Program-made: the position numbers and the translations under genes | IMG/VR virus record: IMGVR_UViG_3300025127_005055 | Coordinates: 1-27,998 of that record | Reading direction: 5' to 3' (one strand) | From: a virus | Length of the DNA stretch: 27,998 bases | Part shown: positions 1,246 through 27,059 of the stretch, in pieces | How the letters are laid out: the number at the start of each line of letters is the position of its first letter | How positions within the stretch are numbered: the stretch's first letter is position 1 | The notes under the pieces: model-generated | What the model saw: the letters and a program-made list of their open reading frames with translations, nothing else | Database searches by the model: none | What the model was told of the DNA's origin: nothing

Positions 1246-2677
1246 CAAGGTTCTTTAAGAAGTCCCTTAATTTAGTCTGATCTGTGTTGTCAGTGTTCAC
1301 TCTGCCTACTGTGTCACCTTTTCTTGGATCTGGTGGAGTAATTTCTTTTGGAGCAGATGCGTCTTCAGTGATTGTGGAAGTTTGTTTTAATGAATTATAG
1401 ATTGTACTTTTACGTTTGTCAAACTCTTGATATTCTGCATCATCGCCTAAGTCTCTAATACGCAAACTGTCCACATCAAATTCTAAATCAATTTTCATAC
1501 CAACACCGCTAGAACTTCTTGTTTTCATTAATTGTATTTGATATCTACCACGTTCTCTCATTGCTCTACTTGTGAATATACCAAACACGTTGTCAGCAGT
1601 TTGTATTTTACTTAAACCACCTGCTATGTGCGAATGATCAAACTCTATTTCTTCTACTGCACCTCTGTTTAACTGTGATGCTGTTACAAATATTACATTT
1701 AATTCCATAGCCAAGTTTCTTAATTCTTCTGAAACAAATTTATCTTTAACAAATAAATCACTTGGACTTACTTTTTTGTTCATGGGCATCATCAAATCTA
1801 AATAATCAACTAGTACAACATCTAGTTTTGTTCCTGTTTTAATTTCATATTCTTTAATATAACTTCTCAAATCATTTGTAGTTTTACCACTTGGCATATA
1901 TTTTATTTGGAACTTACCTGATTTTTTACCAAGTAATTTAACTTTCATTTCTACGCCATCTAAGTCTTTAAATATTTCTTTTGTTGGAACATCTGTCAAC
2001 ATCGAATCCACCCTCATACTTACAAGTGGTTCGCTCAATTCAAAAGTAATGTATGCAACGTTCATGCCATTCAACACCCAGTTACAACCTAAGTTTGCAA
2101 GAAACAAAGACTTACCTGCACCTGATCCTCCTGCAAAAATATTCAGTTCACCTTTGTTAAATCCACCAAACAATCTTTTATCTAGTGTTGCCCAACCTGT
2201 GCTGACTTGACCATTTTGATTTTTCAATCCCATTAGTCTTGCTTTAGGATCTGCAAAGTAATCTGTTCCTATATCTTTGTGTAATCCAATCTGCACTGCC
2301 TTTTTAACCAAATCTTCAACCGGACCATATTCACCTTTTTCAAGCATATCAGCAGATTTCAATATTGCTCTTTCTAAACTTTTATGTCTAACAAAAGTTT
2401 CAAAGTCATTTAGTAACCAGTCGAAATGTTCTTCTGTAAGTTGTTCAGTTTGTTTCAGATCAACACTACAAGATTTATTAACAATGTCATATGTTGGCAA
2501 CTGATTATAATCAGTTACATATTTGTTTATGAACTGTGCTGTGTCTTGAAGTTTTCTGTCAAACAATGAATGATCAAATATAGATTGGCAACGCACGAAT
2601 GTTTCTGCGTTTTGCAACATCATTTCTAGATACAACTTTTGTATGTCATATCCATAATCTTTATTCTGTTTTGCCAT
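1232..2677 (-). CDS. gp41: replicative DNA helicase gp41 (DnaB-like)
   Basis: 481 aa, close to T4 gp41 (475 aa). It forms the hexameric 5'-3' helicase that unwinds the fork and works with primase gp61. The C-terminal RecA-like ATPase domain has Walker A GGSGAGKS (residues 183-190), Walker B VVLVDYLDLM (287-296), and a SQLNRG motif (334-339) typical of DnaB-type helicases. The N-terminal 150 residues form the helical collar domain. The start is set at ATG 2677 (MAKQNKDYG) rather than the longer TTG-initiated frame at 2734: a consensus promoter (TTGACA-17-TATAAT) sits just upstream, and the -10 ends 7 bases before this ATG. The gene overlaps the carbamoyltransferase stop by 17 bases. Confidence 0.93.
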   Translation of the reverse strand: MAKQNKDYGYDIQKLYLEMMLQNAETFVRCQSIFDHSLFDRKLQDTAQFINKYVTDYNQLPTYDIVNKSCSVDLKQTEQLTEEHFDWLLNDFETFVRHKSLERAILKSADMLEKGEYGPVEDLVKKAVQIGLHKDIGTDYFADPKARLMGLKNQNGQVSTGWATLDKRLFGGFNKGELNIFAGGSGAGKSLFLANLGCNWVLNGMNVAYITFELSEPLVSMRVDSMLTDVPTKEIFKDLDGVEMKVKLLGKKSGKFQIKYMPSGKTTNDLRSYIKEYEIKTGTKLDVVLVDYLDLMMPMNKKVSPSDLFVKDKFVSEELRNLAMELNVIFVTASQLNRGAVEEIEFDHSHIAGGLSKIQTADNVFGIFTSRAMRERGRYQIQLMKTRSSSGVGMKIDLEFDVDSLRIRDLGDDAEYQEFDKRKSTIYNSLKQTSTITEDASAPKEITPPDPRKGDTVGRVNTDNTDQTKLRDFLKNLDENE

Positions 2678-3671
2678 GTTCCTTATTATACCACATTTCG
2701 TTTGAATTGTCAATGTGCTTATGATATTTGGCAAGTACAGCGCCTATGCAACTGCCAGGATCTCCAGGATTTTTTGGAACCCATATGTCATCCCAAACAG
2801 ATTCTAATTTGCCTACTGCTGTCTTATTCAATGCACAACCACCTACCAAAATTATGTTTGATGTTTTAATGTTCATTTGTATCCATGAACTTGCACACAT
2901 TAACACTTGTTCAAAAATGTGTTGAGTAGTTGCGGCAATGTCTGCCAAATCTTGTTCTGTGTTTAATTCTGGTCTCCACCAATTGCAACCTCTGTGAAAA
3001 TTTATTCTTGTTTTAAAAGGCATTCTTGTTTCAACTAATTCTTCCATAAACATTCTGTAATATTTTCTCCAATAACCTTTTTTAGCAAGTTGTTCAAATT
3101 TATGCTCTTCTGCATTTGCTTTGAGACCAACTCTCTGAGTCATTGCTGAATAAAATAAACCAATGCTATGTGGGTAATTTTGTGTGTATTTCTTTTCTAG
3201 TTTGTTACCATGTCCATGCCATATTGTAAACGTTTCAAACTCTCCTATACTATCTAAAACTACAACTGCGGCATCTTTATATGGGGAAGTGTAATATCCA
3301 TATGCGGCATGACTCTCATGATGATCAACATATTCTATTGGCACATGATGAATGCCTGCTTTACCTAAAAACTTTTTAATATTGTTTTCTTTCCAATTCC
3401 AACCTTGACCCGCTATCAGTTGACGCATAGTTTTTTTGAAAGGTTTTTCATAAAAATATATCTTAGCAGGGAAGGCCCATTTAGGATTTGCTCTTACTTC
3501 TGCCATCAGTTTAGGACAAAGTGTAGGATCTCCAGGTATACCGCTGAAGTCCTTAGACATTCCTGCCCATTTTAATTTTAAATGATAGTGATCTGTTAGT
3601 CCTGCTACTCTCCATTCCATCACGGCAAGACTGGCATCGTGATTATTTCCTGTTACTCCCCAAACTATCAT
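2661..3671 (-). CDS. NodU/CmcH-type carbamoyltransferase, Kae1-like domain only
   Basis: 336 aa. It has the N-terminal (Kae1-like) domain motifs of the NodU/CmcH/TobZ O-carbamoyltransferases in order: GVTGNNHDASLAV (residues 5-17), metal-site HHESHAA (117-123), VLDSIGE (138-144), IGLFYSAMTQRVG (about 170-182), EEHKFEQLAKKG (188-199), GGCALN near residue 278, and WVPKNPGDPGSCIGAVL near 300-316. Family members are usually about 550-600 aa because a YrdC-like C-terminal domain makes carbamoyl-adenylate; here the protein stops right after the GAxL motif. Known activities are carbamoylation of sugars or antibiotics, and of 5-hydroxymethylcytosine by some phage members. The substrate here is not known. 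ATG 3671 has a good SD (TAGGAG). Confidence 0.85.
   Translation of the reverse strand: MIVWGVTGNNHDASLAVMEWRVAGLTDHYHLKLKWAGMSKDFSGIPGDPTLCPKLMAEVRANPKWAFPAKIYFYEKPFKKTMRQLIAGQGWNWKENNIKKFLGKAGIHHVPIEYVDHHESHAAYGYYTSPYKDAAVVVLDSIGEFETFTIWHGHGNKLEKKYTQNYPHSIGLFYSAMTQRVGLKANAEEHKFEQLAKKGYWRKYYRMFMEELVETRMPFKTRINFHRGCNWWRPELNTEQDLADIAATTQHIFEQVLMCASSWIQMNIKTSNIILVGGCALNKTAVGKLESVWDDIWVPKNPGDPGSCIGAVLAKYHKHIDNSNEMWYNKEHGKTE
2685..2713 (-). promoter_or_regulatory. sigma70-type promoter for gp41
   Basis: The minus strand reads TTGACA (2713-2708), a 17-base spacer, then TATAAT (2690-2685), a perfect consensus match. It lies inside the 3' end of the carbamoyltransferase gene. The expected transcription start, about 7 bases after the -10, falls within 0-2 bases of the gp41 ATG at 2677. 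This predicts a leaderless transcript. Confidence 0.8.
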
Positions 3672-3678
3672 GTTTCTC

Positions 3679-3813
3679 CTATTTGTATATAAACGGGTCT
3701 CTCTTTTGTAATTCTCTTATTTTTTTCTTGTATTTGATATAATTTACAAGTTTTCTAATAGGAGAGGTTACAAAATAGTAAACCTTTTTTAATAATTCTT
3801 TTACGCGAACCAT
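3679..3813 (-). CDS. small basic protein, 44 aa, unknown function
   Basis: ATG 3813 opens a 44-codon frame ending in TAG at 3681-3679. An SD (GAGG) lies upstream within the primase gene. The product begins MVRVKELLKKVYYF, is rich in Lys, Tyr and Ile, and ends KRDPFIYK. It overlaps the last 13 bases of the primase gene in another frame and ends 7 bases before the carbamoyltransferase ATG, so it fills the only gap in this operon. Lysine-rich amphipathic helices flanking VTSPIRK suggest membrane or nucleic-acid contact, but no family is recognised. Confidence rests on the SD, the fit between neighbours and the protein-like composition. Confidence 0.6.
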   Translation of the reverse strand: MVRVKELLKKVYYFVTSPIRKLVNYIKYKKKIRELQKRDPFIYK

Positions 3814-4805
3814 TTTTTCATCCTCAGTTTAATTTTAAGTTGTGACTCTTCAGCATTCTTCACTATTGTGTATAAAGTGTATAGTCTACCATATTTACGC
3901 ACGGCATCATTAACATCTTTTACATCTTGGCTCCACTCAGGCATACTTACACTCCAACCTGCCTCAATACTGTCATGTACTAATTTTTGACCTGCTTCAT
4001 CTCTGTCAGGAACAACTATTACGTGTTTGCCTAAACTGTTCAACAATGCTGTTTGTTGTTCTTTCACTTCACTGCCTAGCAGTGCAACACCATCAATAGC
4101 AATAGCATCAATTGGCCCTTCAACAGCAACCACATATTTTCTATCATCATTTTGTTCATCAATGTTAAACACATACCCTGGTTGTTGTTCGGACAGATAC
4201 TTAACTTTGCTTTCAACTGTTTTTCTTGCTGTGTATCCTACAATTTTTTCTCTATAATAGAAAGGAATAATTAATCTATCTTTAAAGCCTACTTCTGGAC
4301 TCCAATAAAATTCATAATCATTTAGAGTCATTTTTCTTTCCATGATATATTCCAGCACCTTAAACAAGTTAGGATCCATACCACTCGGTTCTAATTCTTT
4401 GTATGTTGCCCATTCATGTATAGGCTTAGACTTTGCTGGAAGTTCTTTTGTTTCAAACTTAGGTAAACTTATAATTGATTTGTATCCAACTGTATCAGTT
4501 TTTGTTTGCAGTGCCTGAAGTGCCAATTTTGTAATTACATCATCTGGAACATTTAGCCATCGCATAAACTTTTTCATTTTGTAAGAAATGTTTCTGCCTA
4601 TACGCCAACTTGTTTTGAATCCACAGTTGAAACAATGATAACTTACACCTTCTTCTGCATTTGCAATCAATCCACCTCTTTGTCTTGTGTCAGGAGTTGT
4701 ACCATTATGCTCACAACATGGAGCATTAAAAGCCAACCAACCACTTGGCGTTTGTTTCCGTTTTGCAGGCAAGTAAATTTGTAATGCATCAAAGACAATA
4801 TTCAT
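3801..4805 (-). CDS. gp61: DNA primase gp61
   Basis: 334 aa, close to T4 gp61 (342 aa). It makes the short RNA primers for lagging-strand synthesis in complex with gp41 helicase. An N-terminal zinc-binding region has C30/C31-x-H33 and C58-x2-C61 (HCFNCGF). The catalytic TOPRIM region has VVAVEGPIDAIAIDG (about 225-239; acidic E229) and VVPDRDEAG (264-272). The ATG at 4805 lies 6 bases after the -10 of a strong promoter, so the message may be leaderless. Helicase gp41 follows two genes downstream, so primosome genes are grouped. Confidence 0.92.
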   Translation of the reverse strand: MNIVFDALQIYLPAKRKQTPSGWLAFNAPCCEHNGTTPDTRQRGGLIANAEEGVSYHCFNCGFKTSWRIGRNISYKMKKFMRWLNVPDDVITKLALQALQTKTDTVGYKSIISLPKFETKELPAKSKPIHEWATYKELEPSGMDPNLFKVLEYIMERKMTLNDYEFYWSPEVGFKDRLIIPFYYREKIVGYTARKTVESKVKYLSEQQPGYVFNIDEQNDDRKYVVAVEGPIDAIAIDGVALLGSEVKEQQTALLNSLGKHVIVVPDRDEAGQKLVHDSIEAGWSVSMPEWSQDVKDVNDAVRKYGRLYTLYTIVKNAEESQLKIKLRMKKWFA

Positions 4806-4811
4806 GCATTA

Positions 4812-4840
4812 ATAATATAACCTTTTGGTTAAAAAGTCAA
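4812..4840 (-). promoter_or_regulatory. sigma70-type promoter for primase gp61
   Basis: TTGACT (4840-4835), 17 bases, TATTAT (4817-4812), then TAATGC and the ATG at 4805. The spacer contains a perfect inverted repeat TAACC-AAAA-GGTTA (4831-4818), a possible operator. The first 18 bases, TTGACTTTTTAACCAAAA, are repeated exactly in the promoter at 13465-13493. Confidence 0.78.
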
Positions 4841-10729: not shown

Positions 10730-12184
10730 TTAGTTCCAATCTACCTTTTCTAATGTAAAAGGATAGTTTGCTTCTTTGTAAAATTTCTTTCTATGTGTTA
10801 AATGTCTTTTTGCAAATTTGCAAGTTGATGTTATGTCCCAAATTTGCACAAAGTCTTTGTCTTTTGCTTTACGTATTCCACGTCCTATTGACTGAATTAC
10901 TCTTACGAAAGACTTGCCTGGCTCTATTAATACCAAATTAAATATCCTTGGAATATTAATACCTACAGATGCTACACCATAAGTTGCAATTATCACTTTG
11001 TTATCGGCACTGCTGATTTCATCATACTGTTCTTTTCTTTCTTCTAATTTTGTTTCACCTTGTATGAACACACTGCCGTCGATTAATTTTTGCAGTTCTG
11101 TACCTGCTGTTAGTCTATCAATTAAAACAAGTGTGTTGCCTGAGGCTTTAATTTTTTCAATAAGTTTTGCTATGTATTCTAAACGTTTTTGATTTGTTGT
11201 GAGATATTTTAATTCTTCTTGATAGTTCTTATACACTGGAGTATCGATCATTTGCACAACATTTACATGACATTTAGATAACACTCCTTTATCTTGTAAT
11301 TCTTTTGCACTAATTTGATTAACAACAGGACCTATACTTGCGAGTATGCTTTGAAATTCAAATTGTTCTTTAGGTACTGTGCCTGTTAATCCCCATCTAA
11401 CTGGAGCATTTTTCAAATGATGTGTCAGTAATTTTTTCAAAACATCTGCTTTTGCTTGATGAACTTCATCAACAATAATTGCTTTGACACCATCTAAAAA
11501 TTCTGTAAGTGTAAGTACCGAGTCTCCTGATTTTGCTCTTTTATCTAAAATATTAAGACTTTGCCATGTACAAATAGTGTGTGTTCTATTCAACTCTTTC
11601 CTATCACCAAAGTAAACACCCACGTCTAATCCAACAGTTTTATAATCTTCTTCTGTTTGTGTTACAAGAGACTTGTTAGGAACTATTACAACTGTTCTTC
11701 CTATACTTTCACATAAACTTGATAAACAAGCAGTGATAATTGTTTTACCAGCACCAGTGGCGACCTCTTGTAAACTTTGCGGTGTGCGTAAAAAATTATT
11801 CACAACTTCAACTTGATAGTCTCTTAATTCAATTGATTGACCTTCGCATTGATGTCCCTTGGGCCATTTTTTATCAGCAAAGTAGTCTTTGTCTATCAAA
11901 CTAAAATTTAAATCTGTTTGTTGTCTTTTGTCATCAATAGAATCTACTTCAATGCCTTCTTCATGAATTATTTGTAAAATTTTGTCTAAATGATTTACAT
12001 AACCATTACCACCTAAACCAAAGAAACCAACTTTACCGTCCCATCTACCTAACTTATATTGAGGCAAATATCTAGCATATGGAACTTGCCATTTCATTTT
12101 GTTTGATATTTTTCTTCTTACATCAACAGGAAGTCCTTCAATTTTTACATTGACTTCATCGTTTATTATAATTTTACATCTCAT
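10730..12184 (-). CDS. uvsW: SF2 DNA helicase UvsW
   Basis: 484 aa, close to T4 UvsW (about 500 aa). It is a branch-migration/recombination helicase that also removes R-loops and helps switch replication from origin- to recombination-dependent mode. Motifs: N-terminal UvsW-type domain (1-110, with QYKLGRWDGKVGFF at 42-55), Q-like RDYQ (121-124), Walker A ATGAGKT (142-148), DEVH box (239-242), motif III GLTGT (265-269), motif V around TYGVASVGINI (401-411) and motif VI QSIGRGIRK (431-439). It starts within the stop of the 425-aa gene (4-base overlap), indicating translational coupling. Confidence 0.95.
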   Translation of the reverse strand: MRCKIIINDEVNVKIEGLPVDVRRKISNKMKWQVPYARYLPQYKLGRWDGKVGFFGLGGNGYVNHLDKILQIIHEEGIEVDSIDDKRQQTDLNFSLIDKDYFADKKWPKGHQCEGQSIELRDYQVEVVNNFLRTPQSLQEVATGAGKTIITACLSSLCESIGRTVVIVPNKSLVTQTEEDYKTVGLDVGVYFGDRKELNRTHTICTWQSLNILDKRAKSGDSVLTLTEFLDGVKAIIVDEVHQAKADVLKKLLTHHLKNAPVRWGLTGTVPKEQFEFQSILASIGPVVNQISAKELQDKGVLSKCHVNVVQMIDTPVYKNYQEELKYLTTNQKRLEYIAKLIEKIKASGNTLVLIDRLTAGTELQKLIDGSVFIQGETKLEERKEQYDEISSADNKVIIATYGVASVGINIPRIFNLVLIEPGKSFVRVIQSIGRGIRKAKDKDFVQIWDITSTCKFAKRHLTHRKKFYKEANYPFTLEKVDWN

Positions 12185-13458
12185 ATTGTTTCAGCAGTGT
12201 CATAAAAGTTTAAAAACATACTGGTTTGACCATTTATGTTAAAAACTAAATCAGACTCATATAAAAAAGTATCCACCTTTGTGTAATTCTTGGATCCATC
12301 GCAACATATTACTGATTCTGGACGCCAAGTAGATTGTACTAAAGGCTTTGGTATCTTTTTACTGTTAATATACACTATTTTTGTTGTGTTTGCAAGTGAA
12401 TTGTTGATGCCGTTATCTTTAACGTAGGTATTAAATTCAGCCCCCGTTCCTTTATTTGGTAATCTAACTAATACTGATATGTCTTTTGGGTCTATTAAAT
12501 TTTTAAATTGTGTATGAAACTGTTGTAATTGCTCTAATGCTCTTTTATCTTGCATACTAACTATCACTAATAAAGGATATCTTTGTAATTGATCAATACA
12601 CTCTGTCAGATGATTCAGTTGCCATTTTTTCAAATCAATATTAATCATAGGATATTTTCTATCTAAGATTTTTTTTGTAAGCACAGATAAATTAGATTTA
12701 CTTTTTTCAACCTCAAACGTATCGAAATGTTTTAATCCTAACTTTATTTTTCTATCATAGAATAAAAATAGATTGTCTGCATTAGGCTTTCCAAACTTCT
12801 CTAAATGATGTTTTGTTACTGCTTTGCTAGAATGTTTAATATCATAATTATAGATGCCTGGCACATAGTCATCAGGATTATTTAAAATATGTTCAACTTC
12901 ATCATAAATTTGCAACAGCACAGGATCTATATCTTTTATTCTTCCTTTGAATCGACCTACAAGTTTATGTATAATTCTTTCATCAAATGGTAAAAGATAT
13001 TTGTCTTTTATTCTCTGCGAATAGAATCTGCCAACTTTGTGTGGAAATAATTTTTTAATATCACTTACTAATTTGCTTAACATCAAGTTGAATGGAAATC
13101 TTATTACGATAATTTTTAATGGTGTAAATCCTGCCCAGATGCCGTCTTGATAATCACTGCCATCTTCTATTCTAATGTATTTTGTTCTGTCTAAATGTCT
13201 AATAGGTTTACGCAAAATGTTTGCACTGTTTTGTATATCTATATCTCTTAATTTAAATTGTGAAGCATACCTATTAACCAAGATACGTTTTACAACTTCG
13301 TATTGTTTGTCAGTCAACGCACTGCCTTTGAATACTTTCTTTGCGATATCTATTAAAATTTTCTTATCTCTTTCTAAAATTACAAACGGTTTTGATACCG
13401 GACCGCTCTGAAGTCCAGCCATTATCTCTAAACACTGCTCTATTGGATATGTTTGCAT
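12181..13458 (-). CDS. unknown 425-aa protein, first gene of the UvsW operon
   Basis: No family is recognised with confidence. Residues 30-65 (ERDKKILIDIAKKVFKG followed by LTDKQYEVVKRIL) look like a 'SLTDKQ' helix-loop found in several phage and plasmid DNA-binding proteins. Residues 100-130 (YQDGIWAGFTPLKIIVIRFPFN) and about 295-345 (RYPLLVIVSMQDKRALEQL, DISVLVRLPNKG) look like a parallel alpha/beta core. No Walker motif is seen in it. The stop overlaps the UvsW start by 4 bases and the gene starts at a strong leaderless-type promoter, so it is likely produced in step with UvsW and may be a partner in recombination. The function is otherwise open. Confidence 0.85.
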   Translation of the reverse strand: MQTYPIEQCLEIMAGLQSGPVSKPFVILERDKKILIDIAKKVFKGSALTDKQYEVVKRILVNRYASQFKLRDIDIQNSANILRKPIRHLDRTKYIRIEDGSDYQDGIWAGFTPLKIIVIRFPFNLMLSKLVSDIKKLFPHKVGRFYSQRIKDKYLLPFDERIIHKLVGRFKGRIKDIDPVLLQIYDEVEHILNNPDDYVPGIYNYDIKHSSKAVTKHHLEKFGKPNADNLFLFYDRKIKLGLKHFDTFEVEKSKSNLSVLTKKILDRKYPMINIDLKKWQLNHLTECIDQLQRYPLLVIVSMQDKRALEQLQQFHTQFKNLIDPKDISVLVRLPNKGTGAEFNTYVKDNGINNSLANTTKIVYINSKKIPKPLVQSTWRPESVICCDGSKNYTKVDTFLYESDLVFNINGQTSMFLNFYDTAETI

Positions 13459-13464
13459 ATCAAT

Positions 13465-13493
13465 AGTATAACGGATTTTGGTTAAAAAGTCAA
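13465..13493 (-). promoter_or_regulatory. sigma70-type promoter for the UvsW operon
   Basis: TTGACT (13493-13488), 17 bases, TATACT (13470-13465), then six bases and the ATG at 13458. The -35 lies in the last codons of the upstream glycosyltransferase gene. The first 18 bases are identical to the gp61 promoter, and the -10-to-ATG spacing is the same. A transcription start at the expected position would yield a leaderless mRNA. Confidence 0.8.
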
Positions 13494-14318
13494 TCTAGAA
13501 AAGGGCAATCCTTGGGCAATTTCATCAACTGTCCACTCTGTATTTGCATAATCATTCAACCATTGCTGTCTTTCCGGCATCAAAGGTTCATTTATTGTAC
13601 TGAAATCTTTATTTGCAACATCATAAGCAAGACTTTGTTCTCCTACAAATGCAGGTATACCATTTAATACAGCATGAATTCCAGGATTACTACTGTGACT
13701 AACTACTGCCCATGCGTTTGTAAAATTTAAATCGAAATCATCATATGTGTTTGCAATTTGTTTAGGTACTTCATAACTTACATTGTCAAGCACAGGTAAA
13801 TTCAACAAAGGACATCTAGGGTGGGGTCTTACTATTATTTTTCTATCAGTGTATTTTCTAATTTCTGTTACAGTGTGTCTAACATATTGATCCAGTGCAG
13901 GTTGGTCTTTCCATTGTTCACTTTTGTCATGTTGTAAACAAATTAAAATATGTTCTCCGTCTTGTCTCCACGGTTTTAAATTAATTGCAAATTGTTTTGC
14001 ACGTAAATCATTATTATCTTTTGTTCCGAAATCTGCTTTTCTATTAATGCCATTTAATGCAACTTTCCATGTGTTGTTTCTTTTTATACCACCAACTTCA
14101 ATAACTAAAACATTTTTATTTTGTTTTCTAAAGTGTTCCCAAATGTCTTTGTTGCGAGCCATTCTACCATGCCATAGTAACGACCATATTACTGGCACAT
14201 CACAATCCATATTGTTTTCGTCGACTGTGTGTCCTAAAGTTTTTAATCCTTTTGATACGGCTTCCCATATAGGAGGACTTACTAAAGCACTGTTTTTTGT
14301 AAACAAACTAAATTTCAT
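13482..14318 (-). CDS. glycosyltransferase-like protein (GT-B/capsule-type family)
   Basis: 278 aa. The N-terminal half includes VIWSLLWHGRMARN and VIEVGGIKRNNTWKV. The C-terminal half has ILICLQHDKSEQW (about 123-135), TVTEIRKYTDRKIIVRPHPRC, AWAVVSHSSNPGIHAVLNGIP and a final W..DEIAQG. The HPR and serine-rich donor-site-like motifs resemble capsular polysaccharide/Kdo-type GT-B transferases. Related copies lie at 15141, 16088 and 400. It is the last gene of the glycan block and overlaps the upstream GT-A gene by 11 bases. The donor sugar is unknown. Confidence 0.6.
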   Translation of the reverse strand: MKFSLFTKNSALVSPPIWEAVSKGLKTLGHTVDENNMDCDVPVIWSLLWHGRMARNKDIWEHFRKQNKNVLVIEVGGIKRNNTWKVALNGINRKADFGTKDNNDLRAKQFAINLKPWRQDGEHILICLQHDKSEQWKDQPALDQYVRHTVTEIRKYTDRKIIVRPHPRCPLLNLPVLDNVSYEVPKQIANTYDDFDLNFTNAWAVVSHSSNPGIHAVLNGIPAFVGEQSLAYDVANKDFSTINEPLMPERQQWLNDYANTEWTVDEIAQGLPFSRLTF

Positions 14319-15144
14319 TCCAATATTTTTCTGTGCGTTGTTGCATTAAATCTTTTCTAGCACTTTTACGTTGTGTCTTTCTTGATCCTTTCATATGATC
14401 AAAATATTTTCCCAATTCTGAATTTATTAAAGGATGACCGCCACCGCCTGTCTTTGCAGTTTTATTATAGATATTTTTAGAATAATCATGATATGCTGTG
14501 TCTAATTTTGCAAGTTTTTTTAAAATATATCCAAACACAAAACTATCATGCCATTCATCTAGAGTAAAAATGCCTTTGTCAGCGTCTTCGTACATAAGTT
14601 CAAACTGTTGCATAAATTTTTTACAAGTATCATTTGTTCTATTCAATCCGTAAAATCCGCACTCGGGCCAAGTTTGTGTACCACGTCCTCTACCTACAAA
14701 CGTTATCCATGTATCATCTGGCAGTAAATCTTCAAATTGTTTGTAAGATATAGGACTGTGTACAAATGTATCTGCGTCGATCCATACTACCCATTTAGAC
14801 TCAGCAGTCTTATAAGTTTCAAACACAGCATAAGTTTTATTTGCAAATCTTATTGCGTCCCATTTAAATTCTTTATGGTGGTCTCTTGGTCGCTTTTCTG
14901 GGAAAGGACATTTACCATTTGCTTTAGGTACATTCTGCCATTTGTTTTTAAACTCTACTAACTGTTTAAGATTTGTTTGAGGTACTATTGTAATTTGTGT
15001 TGGATCAGGATTGACAGGCTCGCAGTTTTCTGCATACACAATAAGTTTTACTTGTTTGTCTACATTCGTAGCGAAACTTTCAAGAAATCTTTGTCCATAC
15101 AAATCTAAACCTTCTTTGTGAAATGTTGTGACTGCTGTTATCAT
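14308..15144 (-). CDS. GT-A fold glycosyltransferase
   Basis: 278 aa from ATG 15144 (MITAVTTFHKEG). The upstream extension to 15171 would need a TTG start and is not preferred. The DxD metal/nucleotide-sugar motif is IDADTF (D123, D125). Further features are KWDAIRFANKTYAV (94-107), ECGFYGLNR, EWHDSFVFG and the C-terminal GGGGHPLINSELGKYFDHMKG segment. The pattern matches putative glycosyltransferases of T4-like marine phages. The ATG sits within the TGA of the upstream gene (4-base overlap). The acceptor is unknown. Confidence 0.72.
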   Translation of the reverse strand: MITAVTTFHKEGLDLYGQRFLESFATNVDKQVKLIVYAENCEPVNPDPTQITIVPQTNLKQLVEFKNKWQNVPKANGKCPFPEKRPRDHHKEFKWDAIRFANKTYAVFETYKTAESKWVVWIDADTFVHSPISYKQFEDLLPDDTWITFVGRGRGTQTWPECGFYGLNRTNDTCKKFMQQFELMYEDADKGIFTLDEWHDSFVFGYILKKLAKLDTAYHDYSKNIYNKTAKTGGGGHPLINSELGKYFDHMKGSRKTQRKSARKDLMQQRTEKYWNEI

Positions 15145-16091
15145 TTTACATATTTCCTCATATGTTTCCAAGCCAAACCTTGTTTTACTTCATCTAAGGT
15201 CCAATGTGTTTGGGCAATTCTTCTTATCCAAAGTTCTCTATCATATGCTTGAGGATTATCTAGTTCCTCAAATTTTTTCATACATACATCTTTTGCTTGG
15301 GCACGTTCAGGGTCAGTAACGAGTGTAGGAATCCCTTCGATTACACTCGCCACTGTTGGACTGCTGTTATGCCCAATCACTGCATGAGCATGAACCAGTT
15401 CAGTTTTTAAATCTTTAGCACCGCTTATTTCGACATTTGAAAAATCTTTATTGCCTGTGTTTATCCAATTACGTAGTGTGGCAATATGAGCACCTGTATT
15501 TTTATCACCTGGATGAAATCTTACTCTAATTAATTTTTTTGGCAAAACTTTTCTTATAGATTGCACAACCATTAATAACCAGTCTAATACTTTGGTGCCT
15601 CGCATACTCCAGCCTCCGTCTCTTTGACAACATATTAGAACGTATGCTCCTCCTCCTAATCTCCATGGTTGCAAATCTATTTTAAGATTTTTCTTTATTT
15701 CTTCCCAACGCATTGGATCTGGATTATCCCAGCAATATTCTGCTGTGTTAGGAAATATTCCATCATATCCATAACGTAAATAATTCTTTGATTGTGTTGG
15801 ATCTGCAAATAAAAATAAACTACTGTCAACAATTACGGTCCTTTTTCCTTTTTGTTGCTGTCTATCATACACTGCCTTACGTAAAATTAAATGTCTATGT
15901 TTTTGTGAATCTTGATGTGTAAAGCCTTGAATAACAGCCACGTCGGCATCTACAATAGACCAAGTATTAAGCACCAGTCCTTTATCACCAACTGCATTTA
16001 CACCTTCAATAAAGTTTTTGATTATTAAAGGCTTTTGTGGCTTTTTGTTTCCAGGAGGAATACATTTCATATATGATACAACTTTTATCAT
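15141..16091 (-). CDS. glycosyltransferase-like protein (GT-B/capsule-type family)
   Basis: 316 aa from ATG 16091 (MIKVVSYMKC); the longer frame to 16121 needs TTG and overlaps its neighbour more. It shares with the 13482 gene the strings LKIDLQPWRLGG / INLKPWRQDG, VLICCQRDG / ILICLQHDK, RVRFHPG / IVRPHPR, AVIGHNSSPTVASVIEGIP / AVVSHSSNPGIHAVLNGIP and HWTLDEVKQG / EWTVDEIAQG, so the two are clear paralogues. These are GT-B-like donor-domain motifs. It overlaps the upstream paralogue by 4 bases (ATGA). The sugar substrate is unknown. Confidence 0.62.
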   Translation of the reverse strand: MIKVVSYMKCIPPGNKKPQKPLIIKNFIEGVNAVGDKGLVLNTWSIVDADVAVIQGFTHQDSQKHRHLILRKAVYDRQQQKGKRTVIVDSSLFLFADPTQSKNYLRYGYDGIFPNTAEYCWDNPDPMRWEEIKKNLKIDLQPWRLGGGAYVLICCQRDGGWSMRGTKVLDWLLMVVQSIRKVLPKKLIRVRFHPGDKNTGAHIATLRNWINTGNKDFSNVEISGAKDLKTELVHAHAVIGHNSSPTVASVIEGIPTLVTDPERAQAKDVCMKKFEELDNPQAYDRELWIRRIAQTHWTLDEVKQGLAWKHMRKYVK

Positions 16092-16885
16092 GTCAATCCG
16101 TACCTCTGCATTATTCTCCAAGCCTCACCTGTTCCTAATTCTTTCCAATGATATTGACAATATGCCAACCAATGTTGCCATTTTTTGACTTGCATAGGGT
16201 CAGCATATAGTGGTGATTCTATTTTACTTAAATCTTTTAATGTCACACTGTCAGCGGCTGTCTTTTGTGTTGTAAATGCAGGAACTCCTACACAAACACT
16301 TTCTATTGCCGCTATACTTTGATATGTAACAACTGCATAAATTTTTTCTCTGATTAGATACCAAGGTACAGATCCTTGTCCAACTCTCGAATGACGTTTT
16401 CCTTTGTCTCTAATTATAATTTCTTTGTCTGTATGTTTTTTCAGTTCAGCAACAGTTTCTTTTACCCATTCGTCTCTGTCTATGTTATAAAATTTACAAG
16501 GTTTTTCACTTGGTGTAACTAATAAAATTTTTCCGCTATGGTCCTTTCGCCATTCTACAAAGTCTAGTTCTTGGCTTTGTTGTGCTATTCTCTTCCAACG
16601 ATCATCTGGACAATCAAAAATATTTGTATGTTGCACATCATTTTTAACTATTCTATGCCAATGTTTCTTTTTTATTAAATTACCTACGTATCCTGTATCG
16701 ATGTAATAGAATGGTCTTTTATTTCCAATAGACTCATAAATTACTTTTCTTTTTGCTAAACTTCTAAAACTTATTGGATTTGTTACTGGAGTTTTTAAAA
16801 TTTCTTCGTAAGGAAGATATTCGGCACCTATACCTTGTACCCACGCTTTAAGAATCGGATCGTCTTTGTCCCAATAATAGTGCAT
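16088..16885 (-). CDS. glycosyltransferase-like protein (GT-B/capsule-type family)
   Basis: 265 aa. The C-terminal half holds ILLVTPSEKPCKFYNI, W.KETVAELKKHTDKEIIIRDKG, YAVVTYQSIAAIESVCVGVPAF and a closing HWKELGTGEAW. It is most like the isolated gene at 400-1245 (PSQNGLDFYGI, EVKKYTNRPIKIRKKG, SLHTMAVTEALREGVPVI) and more distantly like 15141 and 13482. It starts 1 base after the stop of the 16887 gene. No signal peptide is seen. Probably a sugar or polyol-phosphate transferase of GT-B type; the substrate is unknown. Confidence 0.58.
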   Translation of the reverse strand: MHYYWDKDDPILKAWVQGIGAEYLPYEEILKTPVTNPISFRSLAKRKVIYESIGNKRPFYYIDTGYVGNLIKKKHWHRIVKNDVQHTNIFDCPDDRWKRIAQQSQELDFVEWRKDHSGKILLVTPSEKPCKFYNIDRDEWVKETVAELKKHTDKEIIIRDKGKRHSRVGQGSVPWYLIREKIYAVVTYQSIAAIESVCVGVPAFTTQKTAADSVTLKDLSKIESPLYADPMQVKKWQHWLAYCQYHWKELGTGEAWRIMQRYGLT

Positions 16886-16886
16886 A

Positions 16887-17567
16887 TCATTTTTGCATCA
16901 TTTCGGCAAGATATTTTTTCCATACATCGCCATATTCACAATTTCTATAATTTTTAAACCAAGGACCTCCTTCGGTATAATGAATTGCACTTGGTTGTCC
17001 ATCTTCTGGTTCTTTGTACCAACCCACTAACCAGTTCCACTCATGTGATAATTTGCCTATCTCTTCATCTTTTAACCAACTGAATCTATGGAAATATTTT
17101 CCATCATAGTTTGGATTGTTAACTAAATCTACTGATAATTTTTCATTTGAAGGATGACCGCAATTATATAAAACCATAGAACTCCAATTCTTTCTTGGAT
17201 ACTGTGTTTGTTTTTGTCCGTCCATTTTTATTCCTGGCTTAGGAGTATAATCATGTTGCACACACATCACAGCATATTTGTCATCTGCTTGATCAAAAAG
17301 TTCTTTTACATCTTTTAAAAACACAATATCAGAATCACAAAATAATGCCCACCCTTCATAATTTGCAAGTGCTGGAACTAAAAATCTAGTAAACGTGAAT
17401 TCTGTTGAAGCAAGTTTATCTTCACCTCTCCAATACCATTTGTCTTGACGTAGTGTGTTTTGATTTAAAGGAATAACTTCTGCTGAGTCACTGTGAGAAT
17501 AAATTGAATGTTCACACACTTGATAGGCAATGTCTTCTCTTGTATCGTATCCTACATAAATTTTCAT
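16887..17567 (-). CDS. GT-A/GT8-like glycosyltransferase
   Basis: 226 aa. MKIYVGYDTREDIAYQVCEHS opens the nucleotide-sugar binding fold. The catalytic-type DSD motif is FCDSDIVF (D78, D80), preceded by TEFTFTRFLVP (55-65). Later KNWSSMVLYNCGHP and IHYTEGGPWFKNY (acceptor/His metal site) match GT8-related phage and bacterial transferases. It overlaps the cupin gene by 4 bases. It would transfer a hexose to a glycan; specificity is unknown. Confidence 0.78.
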   Translation of the reverse strand: MKIYVGYDTREDIAYQVCEHSIYSHSDSAEVIPLNQNTLRQDKWYWRGEDKLASTEFTFTRFLVPALANYEGWALFCDSDIVFLKDVKELFDQADDKYAVMCVQHDYTPKPGIKMDGQKQTQYPRKNWSSMVLYNCGHPSNEKLSVDLVNNPNYDGKYFHRFSWLKDEEIGKLSHEWNWLVGWYKEPEDGQPSAIHYTEGGPWFKNYRNCEYGDVWKKYLAEMMQK

Positions 17568-17914
17568 GACTTTGTGCCTACTGTTCTTCTTTCTATGTCA
17601 TCATGATTAAATTCTGCCCAATATAGTTCGAAAGCAATGCCATCTTCTAATCCTTCAAACTGGTGAAACTTTCCTGGTTTAACAGTTGTGTAATCGCCTG
17701 CATTAAGAATTGTTTCATCTACAAGACCTTGTTGGTCAGCGTCTTGCCACACTCTTACAATCATTTTGCCTGACTCAACAAAGAAGCCATTCCATTTGTA
17801 TTTGTGTTTGTGTTCTGAACATTTGAATCCTGCTTTGAATTCAATACGATGAAATTCTAATACACCGTTAGCATGGATTAATTCTGTCTTGCCCCAAATT
17901 TTTCCTGCTTTCAT
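17564..17914 (-). CDS. cupin-domain protein
   Basis: 116 aa, a single cupin barrel. Cupin motif 1 is C32-SEHKHKYKWNGFFVESG (metal ligands H35, H37 and possibly E47), and motif 2 is PGKFHQFEG (H84). Single-domain cupins in glycan clusters are often sugar isomerases or epimerases acting on nucleotide sugars, or small metal-dependent sensors. The gene is wedged between an epimerase/dehydratase (1-base TAATG overlap) and a glycosyltransferase (4-base overlap), supporting a nucleotide-sugar role, but the reaction is not proven. Confidence 0.75.
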   Translation of the reverse strand: MKAGKIWGKTELIHANGVLEFHRIEFKAGFKCSEHKHKYKWNGFFVESGKMIVRVWQDADQQGLVDETILNAGDYTTVKPGKFHQFEGLEDGIAFELYWAEFNHDDIERRTVGTKS

Positions 17915-18633
17915 TACAGTTTATTTTCATATCCTTGTTTCGCTAAAAACTCTTTAACGGATATGGTAGGTTTCCAACCTAGTTCTTTCATTTTTGTTAT
18001 ATCTGCTTTTGTATCAGGTCTTTCACCAGGCATACCTTCTCTTACTGGTAAGTTAGGTGCAATATCTTTTACACTTACACTTTCACCTGTTCCAATATCG
18101 ATTGGTCCTTTGAAGTCACTTGCCATCAATACAATCATTGCTTCTACAACGTCATTAACGTGTACAAAGTCTCTTGTGTGGGGTGTCACATATTCTAATT
18201 GATTTGATAACAGTTTGTCGAAGAACATATTCAATCTTGGTGTTTCAGAGTAAACAGTGTGAAATCTCATTGCTACCACGTTAGGATGTGGAATGTATTC
18301 TATTACGTGTTTAGAAGCGGCATAAGGATTTCTCCATGGATCGTATTGTGAACTTGAACTAGCAAACATCACTCTTGTGTTTTGATAATGTGCAAGTATT
18401 CTTTTTGTGCCTTCTACATTGTTGTCCCAATATTTTTTAGGATCATTCATAGATTCTCTCACACCACCTATGCCTGCAAGATGTATTACTAAATCTACTT
18501 CTGGTAAATCTGCTGTAAGAATATTGGCTTCTGCTTTTGTGTCAATGCCAACTACTTCATGTTTCTCTGTTTGTAATCGTTTTACTAAGGCTGAACCGAT
18601 AAAACCTTTATCACCTGTGACTAATATTTTCAT
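17914..18633 (-). CDS. NAD-dependent epimerase/dehydratase (extended SDR)
   Basis: 239 aa from ATG 18633 (MKILVTGDKG). A longer frame to 18765 exists but runs into the upstream gene, and this ATG has an AAGGA ribosome-binding site. The Rossmann motif is GDKGFIG (7-13), the SDR catalytic pair YAASK (Y104, K108), and S92-S95 precede it. The protein is shorter than typical GalE/RmlB-type enzymes (310-340 aa), so part of the substrate-binding domain is reduced. It would modify a nucleotide sugar for the neighbouring transferases. A late-type promoter element lies just upstream. Confidence 0.83.
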   Translation of the reverse strand: MKILVTGDKGFIGSALVKRLQTEKHEVVGIDTKAEANILTADLPEVDLVIHLAGIGGVRESMNDPKKYWDNNVEGTKRILAHYQNTRVMFASSSSQYDPWRNPYAASKHVIEYIPHPNVVAMRFHTVYSETPRLNMFFDKLLSNQLEYVTPHTRDFVHVNDVVEAMIVLMASDFKGPIDIGTGESVSVKDIAPNLPVREGMPGERPDTKADITKMKELGWKPTISVKEFLAKQGYENKL

Positions 18634-18655
18634 ATAGGATTCCTTTGTTTCAAAA

Positions 18656-18665
18656 TATTTATTGG
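18656..18665 (-). promoter_or_regulatory. late-type promoter CCAATAAATA for the distal glycan genes
   Basis: CCAATAAATA on the minus strand ends 22 bases before ATG 18633, in the 37-base gap after the 18671 gene. This is the only such gap inside the glycan block. The predicted leader carries AAGGA. The same 10-mer occurs at 5668-5677 and 24194-24203. Confidence 0.58.
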
Positions 18666-18670
18666 GCGAA

Positions 18671-19339
18671 TTATTTTGATGTTGTAGATTTGATACCCTG
18701 TGTTTTGGTAAAATATGGTTTATAAACATACAACCATTCACACAATTGACGACACATAATGGCATCGTTGGGCCACCATCCTATTCTATCTTGTTTTTCA
18801 ATTATGTCTTTAGCCGCCCAAGGTGTAATCACATAGGCGCTATGTCCTGGTAAACCTTGTGGAATATTTTCAGGTGCCACCCAAGGCACTTTATTAAAAC
18901 CATCAACTAGATTATTATGATAATCTTTTGATTTGAACGTGGCGCCTCTTGGATCATTTATACTGTATGCTCCTACTAGTATGGCAGAAGTTTCCTGTGC
19001 TGTAAATTTTTTTGTGAATAAAGCATCATGTTCTAATATCATAATAGGTTCGTTCATAGACGCACACATTTGCCATAATCTAAAATGACTTTGTGCCGCG
19101 GCTATCCGTTTATGATTGTCATAAGTTTTGTACGGTTTTAGAAATAAATTTGTTTTTGGGCAAGTAATTTTTTTACCTGTGGGCCAAGTCCACGCAACAG
19201 GGAAAATTGTTTCAGGAGTTGTGGCATCAAAAAGTGTTGCCTCAATCTCGCTTTCTGTGTCTTGAATACTTTGCAAACAACGTTCGGCATATGACAAACT
19301 CCAAACATCTTTCATCAATGTTATTATAAATGCTTTCAT
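18671..19339 (-). CDS. GT25-family glycosyltransferase
   Basis: 222 aa. The GT25 (LPS galactosyltransferase-type) signature is clear: AAAQSHFRLWQMC (residues 80-92) followed by EPIMILEHDALF (97-108) with acidic E103-H-D105, then HSAYVITPWAAKDIIE and a WPNDAIMC segment. In bacteria such enzymes add sugars to lipopolysaccharide cores. It is one of three GT25 genes here (also 22041 and 23457). It overlaps the methyltransferase gene by 4 bases. No signal peptide, so cytoplasmic. Confidence 0.8.
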   Translation of the reverse strand: MKAFIITLMKDVWSLSYAERCLQSIQDTESEIEATLFDATTPETIFPVAWTWPTGKKITCPKTNLFLKPYKTYDNHKRIAAAQSHFRLWQMCASMNEPIMILEHDALFTKKFTAQETSAILVGAYSINDPRGATFKSKDYHNNLVDGFNKVPWVAPENIPQGLPGHSAYVITPWAAKDIIEKQDRIGWWPNDAIMCRQLCEWLYVYKPYFTKTQGIKSTTSK

Positions 19340-19926
19340 TTTACGACTTTTAAGATATAACTATCTTGCTTTTTCTTTGAACGCCAATCGTGATGTGTAA
19401 CTTTGTATTTTCCAACTGATTCAAGTAATTTATTCCATTTTTTAGATGTAAAATCATTTGAATGACTTTTAATCCAAGGATGACTCATGTTAACTTTGTC
19501 TAAGTTCCATACATCTTCAATATAGTAAGTGTCTGTAAACTCTATTAAATTATCAAAAGTTTTTTGTTGTCCTTCTGGAGTATGCAGTCCGTCATCTATA
19601 ATAAAATCAAACTTCTGTCCTAATGCTTTGAAATGTTTGTTACATTCTGGGGCAGTACTATCTAGTTTAGCATAACTTACTCTAGAATTTTTTAGCATAG
19701 GTAAATCTTCTGGTGCAACTCTACCAAATGTATCGATAGTATATATTGTAGCATTAGGAAAATATTCTAACCATACATTGATACTTTCACCTCTAAATGT
19801 TCCTACTTCTAATATATTAATAGGTTCATTACGCATCGGTTCAAAGTCTGCTTCGTACAAGTCGCTGTAACTATGCCAAATTTTTTCGCACCCATACTTG
19901 CGAAATAATTGCTCCATTACACTCAT
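19336..19926 (-). CDS. class I SAM-dependent methyltransferase
   Basis: 196 aa. SAM-binding motif I is NILEVGTFRGES (about 37-47), with IYTIDTFGR as the post-I acidic strand and FDFIIDDGLHTPEGQQ as motif IV. The pattern is like macrocin-O-methyltransferase or cephalosporin-hydroxylase-related enzymes found in glycan clusters. It would methylate a sugar or glycan end. It is in tandem with a second methyltransferase gene (4-base overlap). The target atom is unknown. Confidence 0.77.
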   Translation of the reverse strand: MSVMEQLFRKYGCEKIWHSYSDLYEADFEPMRNEPINILEVGTFRGESINVWLEYFPNATIYTIDTFGRVAPEDLPMLKNSRVSYAKLDSTAPECNKHFKALGQKFDFIIDDGLHTPEGQQKTFDNLIEFTDTYYIEDVWNLDKVNMSHPWIKSHSNDFTSKKWNKLLESVGKYKVTHHDWRSKKKQDSYILKVVK

Positions 19927-20495
19927 AACTGTACCTCAAATTGATCGTCGTGGAAGTTGTTTAGTTTGTGTCCTGTGTTTTTAATAAATTGATTTACAGC
20001 ATCTTGTACACCAGGTTTTTTCGGTCCATAGTCGTCACCAAATAGTTTTCCGCCCGGTTTAATCATACCAACTGCCTTTGTTAAGTCGTGTAGACAGCCT
20101 TCATATCCATGACTAGCATCTACATATATCCAATCTAGTTTTTGATCAAATGTGTTAAACCATTGTTCTGTTGACATTCGATGTATTGTAACAGGCTTGC
20201 CGGTAAATTTCTTTTTAACACCTTCGTATATCTTGTCGTAATATCTTTGAAAGCCTTCTGTAGTTGCTTCTCCTGTCAGTTTTGAATAGCGTTCTAGGTA
20301 TGCTTGGTAGCCACCAAATTCATTTGATCCTTTAAATACTTCAGGCGCCCAAGCATCAACTAAATGAATGTGTTTAGCACGGTTTAAAAATTTTAAAGCA
20401 CTATCTCCTTGCCATACTCCTAACTCTGCACCAATACTACCTGCTGGAATACGTTTCCATGTTTCATCTGTCCCTGGGTTTTTTCCAAACATCAT
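19923..20495 (-). CDS. class I SAM-dependent methyltransferase (Methyltransf_24 type)
   Basis: 190 aa. Motif I is IGAELGVWQGDSALKFL (21-37), the acidic strand is HIHLVDAWAP, motif IV is LDWIYVDASHGYEGCLHDL, and PGGKLFGDDYG follows, which together match the Methyltransf_24 family. Probably a sugar or small-molecule O-methyltransferase acting with the neighbouring transferases. It starts at MMFGKN and overlaps the 20492 gene by 4 bases. Confidence 0.78.
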   Translation of the reverse strand: MMFGKNPGTDETWKRIPAGSIGAELGVWQGDSALKFLNRAKHIHLVDAWAPEVFKGSNEFGGYQAYLERYSKLTGEATTEGFQRYYDKIYEGVKKKFTGKPVTIHRMSTEQWFNTFDQKLDWIYVDASHGYEGCLHDLTKAVGMIKPGGKLFGDDYGPKKPGVQDAVNQFIKNTGHKLNNFHDDQFEVQL

Positions 20496-21268
20496 AAAAT
20501 TTCTTCCTTTAAATTTATTTTCATTCCGTTATTATAACCGCGACGTAAATGATGACTCCATTTACTTGGATCTCTCGTAGTATATATGTGTATTTTCTCA
20601 GGATTAAAATAAAGTTGTGACATATGTAAAAAACCACTATCAACGCCAACATGAAATTTTGCTTTTGACATTGCAAAAGCGATATGTGCCAAACTGTTTT
20701 TTAATAATGGATTTGACGATTCTCCGCCTACAATAATTTTTTCATAATTTTTGTATTTTGCTAGAATTTGTTGTCTGTTTTTCTGTTTCATCATTCTATT
20801 CTTAGAAGTAGAATCAAATTGCACCGTAATAAAATTATTGTTTGGCAAATTTAAATCCTGTTGCACTTTTGCTGATAAATTGGGAAATAATTTCAAATAC
20901 CTAGAACAATGAATTCCTTTTTTAGGTTCAAATTTTTGAGGGAAATCATCATAAATTTGCTCTTCTGCATTTTTATATCCTAAATTTTTAACAAATTCTA
21001 AAAATGATTCATTGTCTTTAGGTTCGTGATCTAAATGTTTTTCAATAAAAATTTTTCCCTCTGGAAACAGTGAAATAATTTCAGGCCAACTGTCTGGCTT
21101 ATGTCTATTCCATTGATATTTTGTCAAATGCAGTGTAACAGGTGTATTTTCCATTACACTATAATTGTGACAGAGCATAATGTGATGTATTCTGTCGCCC
21201 AAACCAGGTGCTCCATAAAAGAAGTTTTTTTTGATAGTGCTGAATGCTCTCATTACTAAATGTTTCAT
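20492..21268 (-). CDS. GT-B glycosyltransferase, GT9/heptosyltransferase-like
   Basis: 258 aa. The first domain has YGAPGLGDRIHH (18-29), like the G-G-D substrate loop of GT9-type transferases. The second domain ends with FHVGVDSGFLHMSQL (205-219), which resembles the donor-site 'vg.DSG..H.A' motif of heptosyltransferases. It is shorter than ADP-heptose transferases (about 320-350 aa), so specificity is uncertain. It overlaps both neighbours by 4 bases. The product would be a surface or virion glycan. Confidence 0.6.
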   Translation of the reverse strand: MKHLVMRAFSTIKKNFFYGAPGLGDRIHHIMLCHNYSVMENTPVTLHLTKYQWNRHKPDSWPEIISLFPEGKIFIEKHLDHEPKDNESFLEFVKNLGYKNAEEQIYDDFPQKFEPKKGIHCSRYLKLFPNLSAKVQQDLNLPNNNFITVQFDSTSKNRMMKQKNRQQILAKYKNYEKIIVGGESSNPLLKNSLAHIAFAMSKAKFHVGVDSGFLHMSQLYFNPEKIHIYTTRDPSKWSHHLRRGYNNGMKINLKEEIL

Positions 21269-22044
21269 ATTTTTTTCAATATTTCTTCTATGTTTTCACC
21301 ACGTTGTGGTAATTTATCACGTAAAAAGAAGTGAACAAAGTAACTTTCTTTCTGTTTATGTTTTTCAACTGCGGTGTATAACGCATTCCAACGCCAGTCC
21401 ATATTTTTAACTTTCATTTGTTCTTTTTTCACCCACCAGTTCAACAACATCTGATCTGTACTCCATTTATAAAAACCAACTCCATCCACAAAATTCTTAA
21501 ATTCAGGTCTTAAAATAAATTCTTTTGGTGTTTGACCTTTAAGATATTTTGAAAATGATTTATTCATTACCATCAATCCCATGTTATAAAATTCAGCACC
21601 TAAATGGTTCCATTTCCAGTCAACGTCTTTTAAATTTGTAAAAGCACTTCTTGAATATTTTGTAATTTTGTTTTTATATTTGTGATTTAATGGTAATTCC
21701 CTTTCAGCAACACCACCAAAATCGTATTCCAATGGTAAATCTAAGAAAATGTCGGGAGCGGTGGATTTAATATAGATGTCACTGTCAACTATTGCTATCT
21801 GGTCATATCTGTCGAAGTATTCAAAGGCATTTTCTTTTTCATAAATTGGCATATATCCTAATCTTTCAACTGCTTCTTTACTTCTACCTGTTCTTTCCAT
21901 ATCAGGTCGTATTTTTAATTTGGGTTCAGTGAGAACAATGTGATCTATACCGTATTTTTTGCAATATTCTGCTACACTATTGATACAAGTTGTATAAAGT
22001 TTGCTAGGTTTACCCACACTTACTTGAAATATTAACCTTTTCAT
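21265..22044 (-). CDS. GT-A fold nucleotide-sugar transferase
   Basis: 259 aa. The fold opens with RLIFQVSVGKPSKLY. The DxD motif is IAIVDSDIYIK (D87, D89). LGAEFYNMGLMVMNK (about 148-162) and YKWSTDQMLLNWW are typical of GT8-like/nucleotide-diphospho-sugar transferases. The block IEEILKKI closes the protein. It overlaps the GT25 gene by 4 bases. The sugar and acceptor are unknown. Confidence 0.73.
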   Translation of the reverse strand: MKRLIFQVSVGKPSKLYTTCINSVAEYCKKYGIDHIVLTEPKLKIRPDMERTGRSKEAVERLGYMPIYEKENAFEYFDRYDQIAIVDSDIYIKSTAPDIFLDLPLEYDFGGVAERELPLNHKYKNKITKYSRSAFTNLKDVDWKWNHLGAEFYNMGLMVMNKSFSKYLKGQTPKEFILRPEFKNFVDGVGFYKWSTDQMLLNWWVKKEQMKVKNMDWRWNALYTAVEKHKQKESYFVHFFLRDKLPQRGENIEEILKKI

Positions 22045-22622
22045 TTATAATCCTTTGTAAAACTGAAATCTTTCTTAGAAAATGTAACTTTATTATCTAG
22101 GTCAAAGTCTACATTACAAATACCATTGTTCAAACACCAATCTGCCGGCATTGCTCCATGTTTGTCTATCCAACTAACAATTTTTCTTGCTCCTGCTGGT
22201 GTGATACAGTAGGCTCTTGCACCTTCCCACCATTGTCCAACATTCATAGGCTTTGCTGGACGAAATCCTTCGAACTTTATTACATCTTTAAATTTTTTAT
22301 CTATTGAAAACTGTTTTTTAAACAAAACATCATGTTCAAAAATACAAATATTGTTTTTTTGTGCAGAACATTGTTTCCATAAATGATATTGACTCAAAAA
22401 ACAACCTTGTGTTCCTGGTCTAGACAATAATCGAACACATTTTTTACTTCCTTGATAAATTTTTACACCAAAGTCGTCAAGACTTTGTTTAGTTCCATCT
22501 ATACCTTCATGCAGTTGAAGATTCCAGCCTAATGCTGTACCTGATACTAATGCTTCATTGGCCCATTGCACGGAATATTCATGATTTTTAACGTAAATGA
22601 TGTATCCTTTAGGATTTTCCAT
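22041..22622 (-). CDS. GT25-family glycosyltransferase
   Basis: 193 aa, a compact GT25 member: GCFLSQYHLWKQC (73-85), NICIFEHDVLF (91-101) with E96-H-D98, then AYCITPAGARKIVSWID and GAMPADWCLNNG. It is shorter than cellular GT25 enzymes (about 250 aa) and starts inside the end of the upstream gene (14-base overlap). A close paralogue lies at 23457. Likely adds a sugar to a lipooligosaccharide-like glycan. Confidence 0.77.
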   Translation of the reverse strand: MENPKGYIIYVKNHEYSVQWANEALVSGTALGWNLQLHEGIDGTKQSLDDFGVKIYQGSKKCVRLLSRPGTQGCFLSQYHLWKQCSAQKNNICIFEHDVLFKKQFSIDKKFKDVIKFEGFRPAKPMNVGQWWEGARAYCITPAGARKIVSWIDKHGAMPADWCLNNGICNVDFDLDNKVTFSKKDFSFTKDYK

Positions 22623-24185: not shown

Positions 24186-24193
24186 ATTTTGAA

Positions 24194-24203
24194 TATTTAT
24201 TGG
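24194..24203 (-). promoter_or_regulatory. late-type promoter CCAATAAATA for the glycan block
   Basis: CCAATAAATA on the minus strand ends 8 bases before ATG 24185, in the 37-base gap after the 152-aa gene. With T4 late spacing (start 6 bases past the element) the leader would be about 3 bases. It is the third exact copy of this 10-mer. Confidence 0.58.
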
Positions 24204-24222
24204 AATGTATTTTTGGTGTGCT

Positions 24223-26977: not shown

Positions 26978-26996
26978 AATGTTTAGCCTCCTATAT

Positions 26997-27030: not shown

Positions 27031-27059
27031 AGTATAGCACAAGACAAACATATTGTCAA
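27031..27059 (-). promoter_or_regulatory. sigma70-type promoter P2 for gp32
   Basis: TTGACA (27059-27054), 17 bases, TATACT (27036-27031). The expected start near 27024 gives a leader of about 47 bases with the repeat and the SD. It overlaps promoter P1 by one base. Confidence 0.8.

Follow-up and report, generated by a model that had tools for sequence, protein, structure and literature searches.

Within a wide group of large T4-like phages, three genes coding for a gp41-like replicative helicase, a gp61-like DNA primase and a 425-residue protein carry promoters placed so close to their ATG codons that the best explanation, to which we would assign a probability of roughly 0.85 from sequence comparisons, is that host RNA polymerase starts transcription at or near the AUG and so yields leaderless mRNAs translated by 70S initiation. 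The window, meaning here the whole of the 27,998-base virus record analysed (GC content 33.5%), bears nearly all of its coding on the minus strand, with most genes arranged in a tight one-strand series. Family searches identified gp41-like helicase, gp61-like primase, UvsX-like, gp32-like and UvsW-like helicase genes, the name UvsW being our interpretation of a helicase family match. The stretch between the replication genes and uvsX (13482-24251, minus strand) appeared by eye to be a run of glycosyltransferase-, methyltransferase- and sugar-modifying-enzyme-like genes, and the protein coded at 13482-14318 was without a match in the family search.

Table 1. Coordinates of the genes, promoters and translation signals considered in the window
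Feature	Positions	Strand	Basis or remark
gp41-like replicative helicase, 481 aa	1232..2677	-	family searches
Carbamoyltransferase-like gene; 3' end bears the gp41 promoter and overlaps gp41	2661..3671	-	family searches, codon comparison
gp61-like DNA primase, 334 aa; ATG 4805	3801..4805	-	family search, orthologue comparison
425-aa protein, family unassigned, upstream of UvsW-like helicase; ATG 13458	12181..13458	-	family searches, orthologues
gp41 promoter TTGACA (2713-2708)-17-TATAAT (2690-2685)	2685..2713	-	12/12 consensus plus extended -10 TG (TGG)
gp41 AAGGAAC and ATG 2677	2675..2684	-	predicted transcript start 2679-2677, leader 0-2 nt
gp61 promoter TTGACT (4840-4835)-17-TATTAT (4817-4812), then TAATGC, ATG 4805	4812..4840	-	10/12
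425-aa gene promoter TTGACT (13493-13488)-17-TATACT (13470-13465), then ATTGAT, ATG 13458	13465..13493	-	10/12
gp32 promoter TTGACA-17-TATACT, leadered contrast case	27031..27059	-	sequence scan
gp32 Shine-Dalgarno AGGAGG, 9 bases before ATG 26977	26987..26992	-	sequence

Compared with the sigma-70 pattern of TTGACA and TATAAT, the gp41 promoter agreed at all 12 positions and those of gp61 and the 425-aa gene at 10 each, with spacers of 17 bases throughout, thereby bearing out the original prediction of near-consensus boxes at all three genes; the gaps of 7, 6 and 6 bases that it gave between the respective -10 boxes and ATGs proved exact to the base. The gp41 transcript start in Table 1 was placed from the usual distance between a -10 box and +1. 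The accompanying claim that no ribosome-binding site would be present held for gp61 and the 425-aa gene, neither of which has one between the -10 box and the ATG; at gp41 the window and its group retain AAGGA in that interval, upstream of the predicted transcript start. In bacteria, leaderless genes have been recognised in published work by a TA-like box some 12 bp ahead of the start codon (PMC3160421), and in all three genes the first T of the -10 box lies 12-13 bp before the start; a TA-led spacing of 11-13 bp was recorded for nearly all primase and 425-aa orthologues and for 25 of the 37 promoter-bearing gp41 relatives. Predicted folding at the 5' ends of the three starts was not unusually weak (-0.7 to -2.5 against a mean of -2.5 kcal/mol).

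The -35 box of the 425-aa gene is formed within the last codons and stop of the gene upstream (TTG ACT TTT TAA), and its promoter has in common with that of gp61 the 18-mer TTGACTTTTTAACCAAAA (13476-13493 and 4823-4840, respectively), for which a shared regulator or DNA shape may be raised as possible reasons. Unrelated viral contigs also contain this core, there followed mostly by leaders of 23-32 bases that often include AAAGGAG, and these promoters constitute a natural contrast; in named phages, searches with the 18-base core returned only chance-level matches.

A raw promoter scan of the window gave 71 sites against 68 ± 8 in shuffled sequence, so that agreement with the consensus proves nothing by itself, and position and conservation were tested instead. 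The distance from promoter to ATG was accordingly determined for promoters of at least 10/12 across a set of 12 related contigs and genomes, among them relatives of 357 kb and 262 kb and PA5oct: 28 lay at 6 bases, 15 at 7 and a total of four at 8-11, followed by a broad hump at 22-35. The 43 promoters at 6-7 bases, which represent fewer than 43 independent events since the contigs are related, compare with 2.2 ± 1.9 (maximum 16) for 283 permuted motifs, and the peak was present in every relative examined. No such peak was seen in the control phages P-SSM2 (2 of 278 genes), RaK2 (1/494) and T4 (0/72 in the first 50 kb). The ATG-adjacent position of these promoters is not a product of chance. 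In the 357-kb relative, near-consensus promoters were also noted 6 bases before the ATG of minus-strand starts at 268412 and 270950, genes which by eye are UV-endonuclease-like and oxygenase-like.

With the primase, about 38 distinct upstream sequences were compared, and nearly all have a promoter at a distance of 5-7 bases from the ATG; relatives at only 41-45% protein identity retain that gap within unrelated flanks, the -35 box then being mostly TTGATT or TTGATC. In the window, gp61 lacks a usable Shine-Dalgarno site, and its reading frame is closed by a stop two codons upstream of the ATG, which excludes a longer form. The primases of PA5oct and Paride are preceded by TTGACA-17-TATAAT-GTGCGC-GTG and would require a leaderless GTG start, a feature that counts against the leaderless reading; that of SCTP-2 shows TTGACA-16-TAGCAT-6-ATG, provided that the start is shifted upstream to regain the conserved N-terminus. 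On the primase tree the leaderless state requires at least three changes, the placement of PA5oct and SCTP-2 being uncertain on account of their long branches. The primase starts of PA5oct (L299:471-1499), SCTP-2 (L302:547-1485) and Paride (L372:337-1257) look misannotated: in the latter two the annotated start lies downstream of the predicted leaderless start, and in PA5oct it immediately follows the -10 box and precedes the predicted transcript start. These three cases fit gene finders missing such starts, and suggest that the start codons of leaderless-type genes get misannotated.

Orthologues of the 425-aa protein, a family found in all 16 related records searched and adjoining the UvsW-like helicase in the window, keep the promoter gap at 6-7 bases down to about 34% identity. 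The window protein gave no Pfam or PHROG match and its orthologues weak matches only, while tblastn found no homologue in named phages. A structure model was confident (pLDDT 87), and returned only weak helicase-like matches in the PDB, the best BFVD matches being uncharacterised viral proteins.

Among 73 distinct gp41 relatives, the promoter lies at 5-7 bases in 25 and at 22-39 bases in 12, with none between, and 36 have no promoter by the same test; 11 of the 12 leadered relatives have a Shine-Dalgarno-like site. Within the window group the gp41 promoter falls within the stretch of the carbamoyltransferase gene that codes for the C-terminal H-I-D...W-Y-N, and could thus have been a mere by-product of that protein motif. 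In 29 distinct carbamoyltransferase genes, however, the promoter-making codons are fixed as GAC (29/29, against a usage of 30%), AAT (29/29) and TAT (27/29), together with ATT or CTT (29/29), neighbouring codons vary synonymously, and in other gp41 relatives the TATAAT lies at or past the stop codon of the upstream gene. The by-product explanation was therefore rejected, and selection is taken to act on the promoter. A second perfect TTGACA-17-TATAAT (12/12) inside the 3' end of gp41 (1422-1394, minus strand) decays in close relatives; being unconserved, it was rejected as a promoter, is probably a coding coincidence, and serves as a negative control.

By way of contrast, gp32 had been predicted to possess a leader of about 47 bases with AGGAGG, and the positions in Table 1 agree, the leader length itself being a predicted value. 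In the two largest relatives, G010 (357 kb) and G011, Shine-Dalgarno sites accompany 35 of 39 and 19 of 25 leadered promoters, respectively, as against 3/10 and 0/4 leaderless ones; in the small contigs, the window included, the cases are too few for such counts to separate the classes. The proposed division of the genes into leaderless and leadered classes thus receives strong support from comparative sequence evidence, with the caveat at gp41 of its AAGGA and its overlap with the upstream gene. That these would be early genes, read by unmodified host polymerase as soon as infection begins, is suggested by promoter type and gene function only, and the tuning of translation during takeover raised in the original prediction would be a further possibility.

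In the mechanism envisaged, host sigma-70 RNA polymerase would bind the near-consensus promoters, and the 6-7 base discriminator would set the start of transcription at the A of the ATG or no more than two bases from it. The resulting mRNAs would have neither a 5' leader nor a Shine-Dalgarno sequence, and their 5'-terminal AUG would be recognised by an intact 70S ribosome with initiator tRNA, a mode of initiation established for other leaderless mRNAs (PMC9031893). Translation of this kind resists kasugamycin (PMC5230787). The arrangement would be ancient and maintained by selection at the genes for the primase, the helicase and the 425-aa protein across a wide range of large T4-like phages. 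Other genes of the same genomes have leaders of 22-35 bases with Shine-Dalgarno sites. Counting against this reading is the rarity of leaderless mRNAs among bacteria of the E. coli type (PMC9031893).

An alternative that takes leaderless mRNA as given, and differs only on what it is for, holds that these starts act as a dimmer, keeping the primase and others low, rather than as a takeover device. In enterobacteria, leaderless messages are often translated less strongly than those with a Shine-Dalgarno site, and gp32, a protein required in large amounts, has a leader with AGGAGG in this genome; yet the replicative helicase is also among the leaderless genes, and the strength of leaderless translation varies with the host, leaving this purpose a possible, if doubtful, one.

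A second alternative, which we consider unlikely, is that the promoters at the ATGs are real but that most of the protein comes from longer read-through transcripts, through coupling or weak ribosome-binding sites, the leaderless RNA being minor or poorly translated. The one-strand, tightly spaced gene order is in its favour, as is the situation at gp41, whose ATG (2677) is reached before the stop of the upstream gene (2661) and is preceded at two bases by AAGGA; because of these two features gp41 may also be translated from read-through mRNA, with AAGGA assisting. That explanation nevertheless predicts that the spacing should drift, whereas gp41 relatives are empty at 8-21 bases, and gp61, with its upstream stop and lacking a usable Shine-Dalgarno site, keeps the leaderless spacing over great distances.

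It is very improbable that the annotated ATGs are wrong and that translation truly starts further downstream behind a normal leader, as might be proposed from a second in-frame ATG present at codon 13 of the 425-aa gene in most relatives. M1 and E7 do not vary across 14 orthologues and C9, L10 and E11 hardly do, the orthologue L233 has no Met13, and the primase orthologues align from their first residue, with the metal-binding PCCEH motif at about residue 29. As no ATG, GTG or TTG precedes the start of the 425-aa gene before its upstream stop, and gp61 likewise has its upstream in-frame stop, wrong starts are unlikely for both. Chance or protein-coding coincidence in AT-rich DNA, with which the shuffled counts and the unconserved perfect match inside gp41 would agree, is most improbable in view of the position-specific excess at 6-7 bases, the spacer of 17 bases and gap of 5-7 bases kept by divergent relatives, and the freezing of the promoter-bearing codons.

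The cI gene of lambda is expressed from a sigma-70 promoter as a leaderless mRNA with AUG at its 5' end. The genes described here share with it a phage origin, the promoter type and, by prediction, the 5'-terminal AUG, but cI codes for the repressor of a temperate phage, whereas the present genes serve the replisome in T4-like phages and are conserved throughout a broad group. Lambda is named as the first leaderless case in PMC3160421. In bacteria, the -10-adjacent leaderless genes of Actinobacteria and Deinococcus-Thermus (TANNNT; PMC3160421, PMC12340547) likewise lack a Shine-Dalgarno sequence and have a -10 box that begins 12-13 bases ahead of the start, and the arrangement in the window resembles that of the Deinococcus genes (PMC12340547); unlike them, the phage genes have a strong -35 box, a spacer of mostly 17 bases, and a setting in AT-rich genomes of lytic phages, where Shine-Dalgarno leaders are otherwise the rule. 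T4, T4-like jumbo phages and cyanophages (Munch, GAP32, RaK2, 121Q, P-SSM2, ACG-2014f) have homologous primases and helicases, and several of the six named have a TATAAT box upstream of the primase, but their primase leaders are about 20-35 bases long, mostly with Shine-Dalgarno-like sites. For the jumbo phage AR9 the mapped 5' UTRs are 26-491 nt, none being leaderless, although the same paper describes phage transcripts as often leaderless (PMC5312081); AR9 is comparable as a large phage, one with mapped 5' ends.

Leaderless phage mRNAs were already known in principle; what appears to be new is that they are so deeply conserved at replisome genes in large T4-like phages. The open-licence literature, consulted mostly as titles and abstracts, yielded no description of such conservation of leaderless replication genes in T4-like phages. 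The group consists mostly of uncultured marine and freshwater viruses of bacteria in which the spacing has been kept though the surrounding sequence has changed, and thus represents deeply conserved predicted leaderless expression of essential replication genes in lytic phages. Only tentatively can it be suggested that leaderless expression of the primase, the helicase and the third protein is a selected strategy of lytic T4-like phages, securing 70S synthesis when ordinary initiation is limiting, as may be so during host takeover or in starved or dormant cells; Paride, reported to multiply in dormant P. aeruginosa (PMC10761892), shares this arrangement at its primase and is on that account linked to this suggestion. 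Natural variants in which the same gene and promoter occur with or without a leader, together with the cultured phages PA5oct, Paride and SCTP-2, make the question of why these genes would be leaderless a directly testable one.
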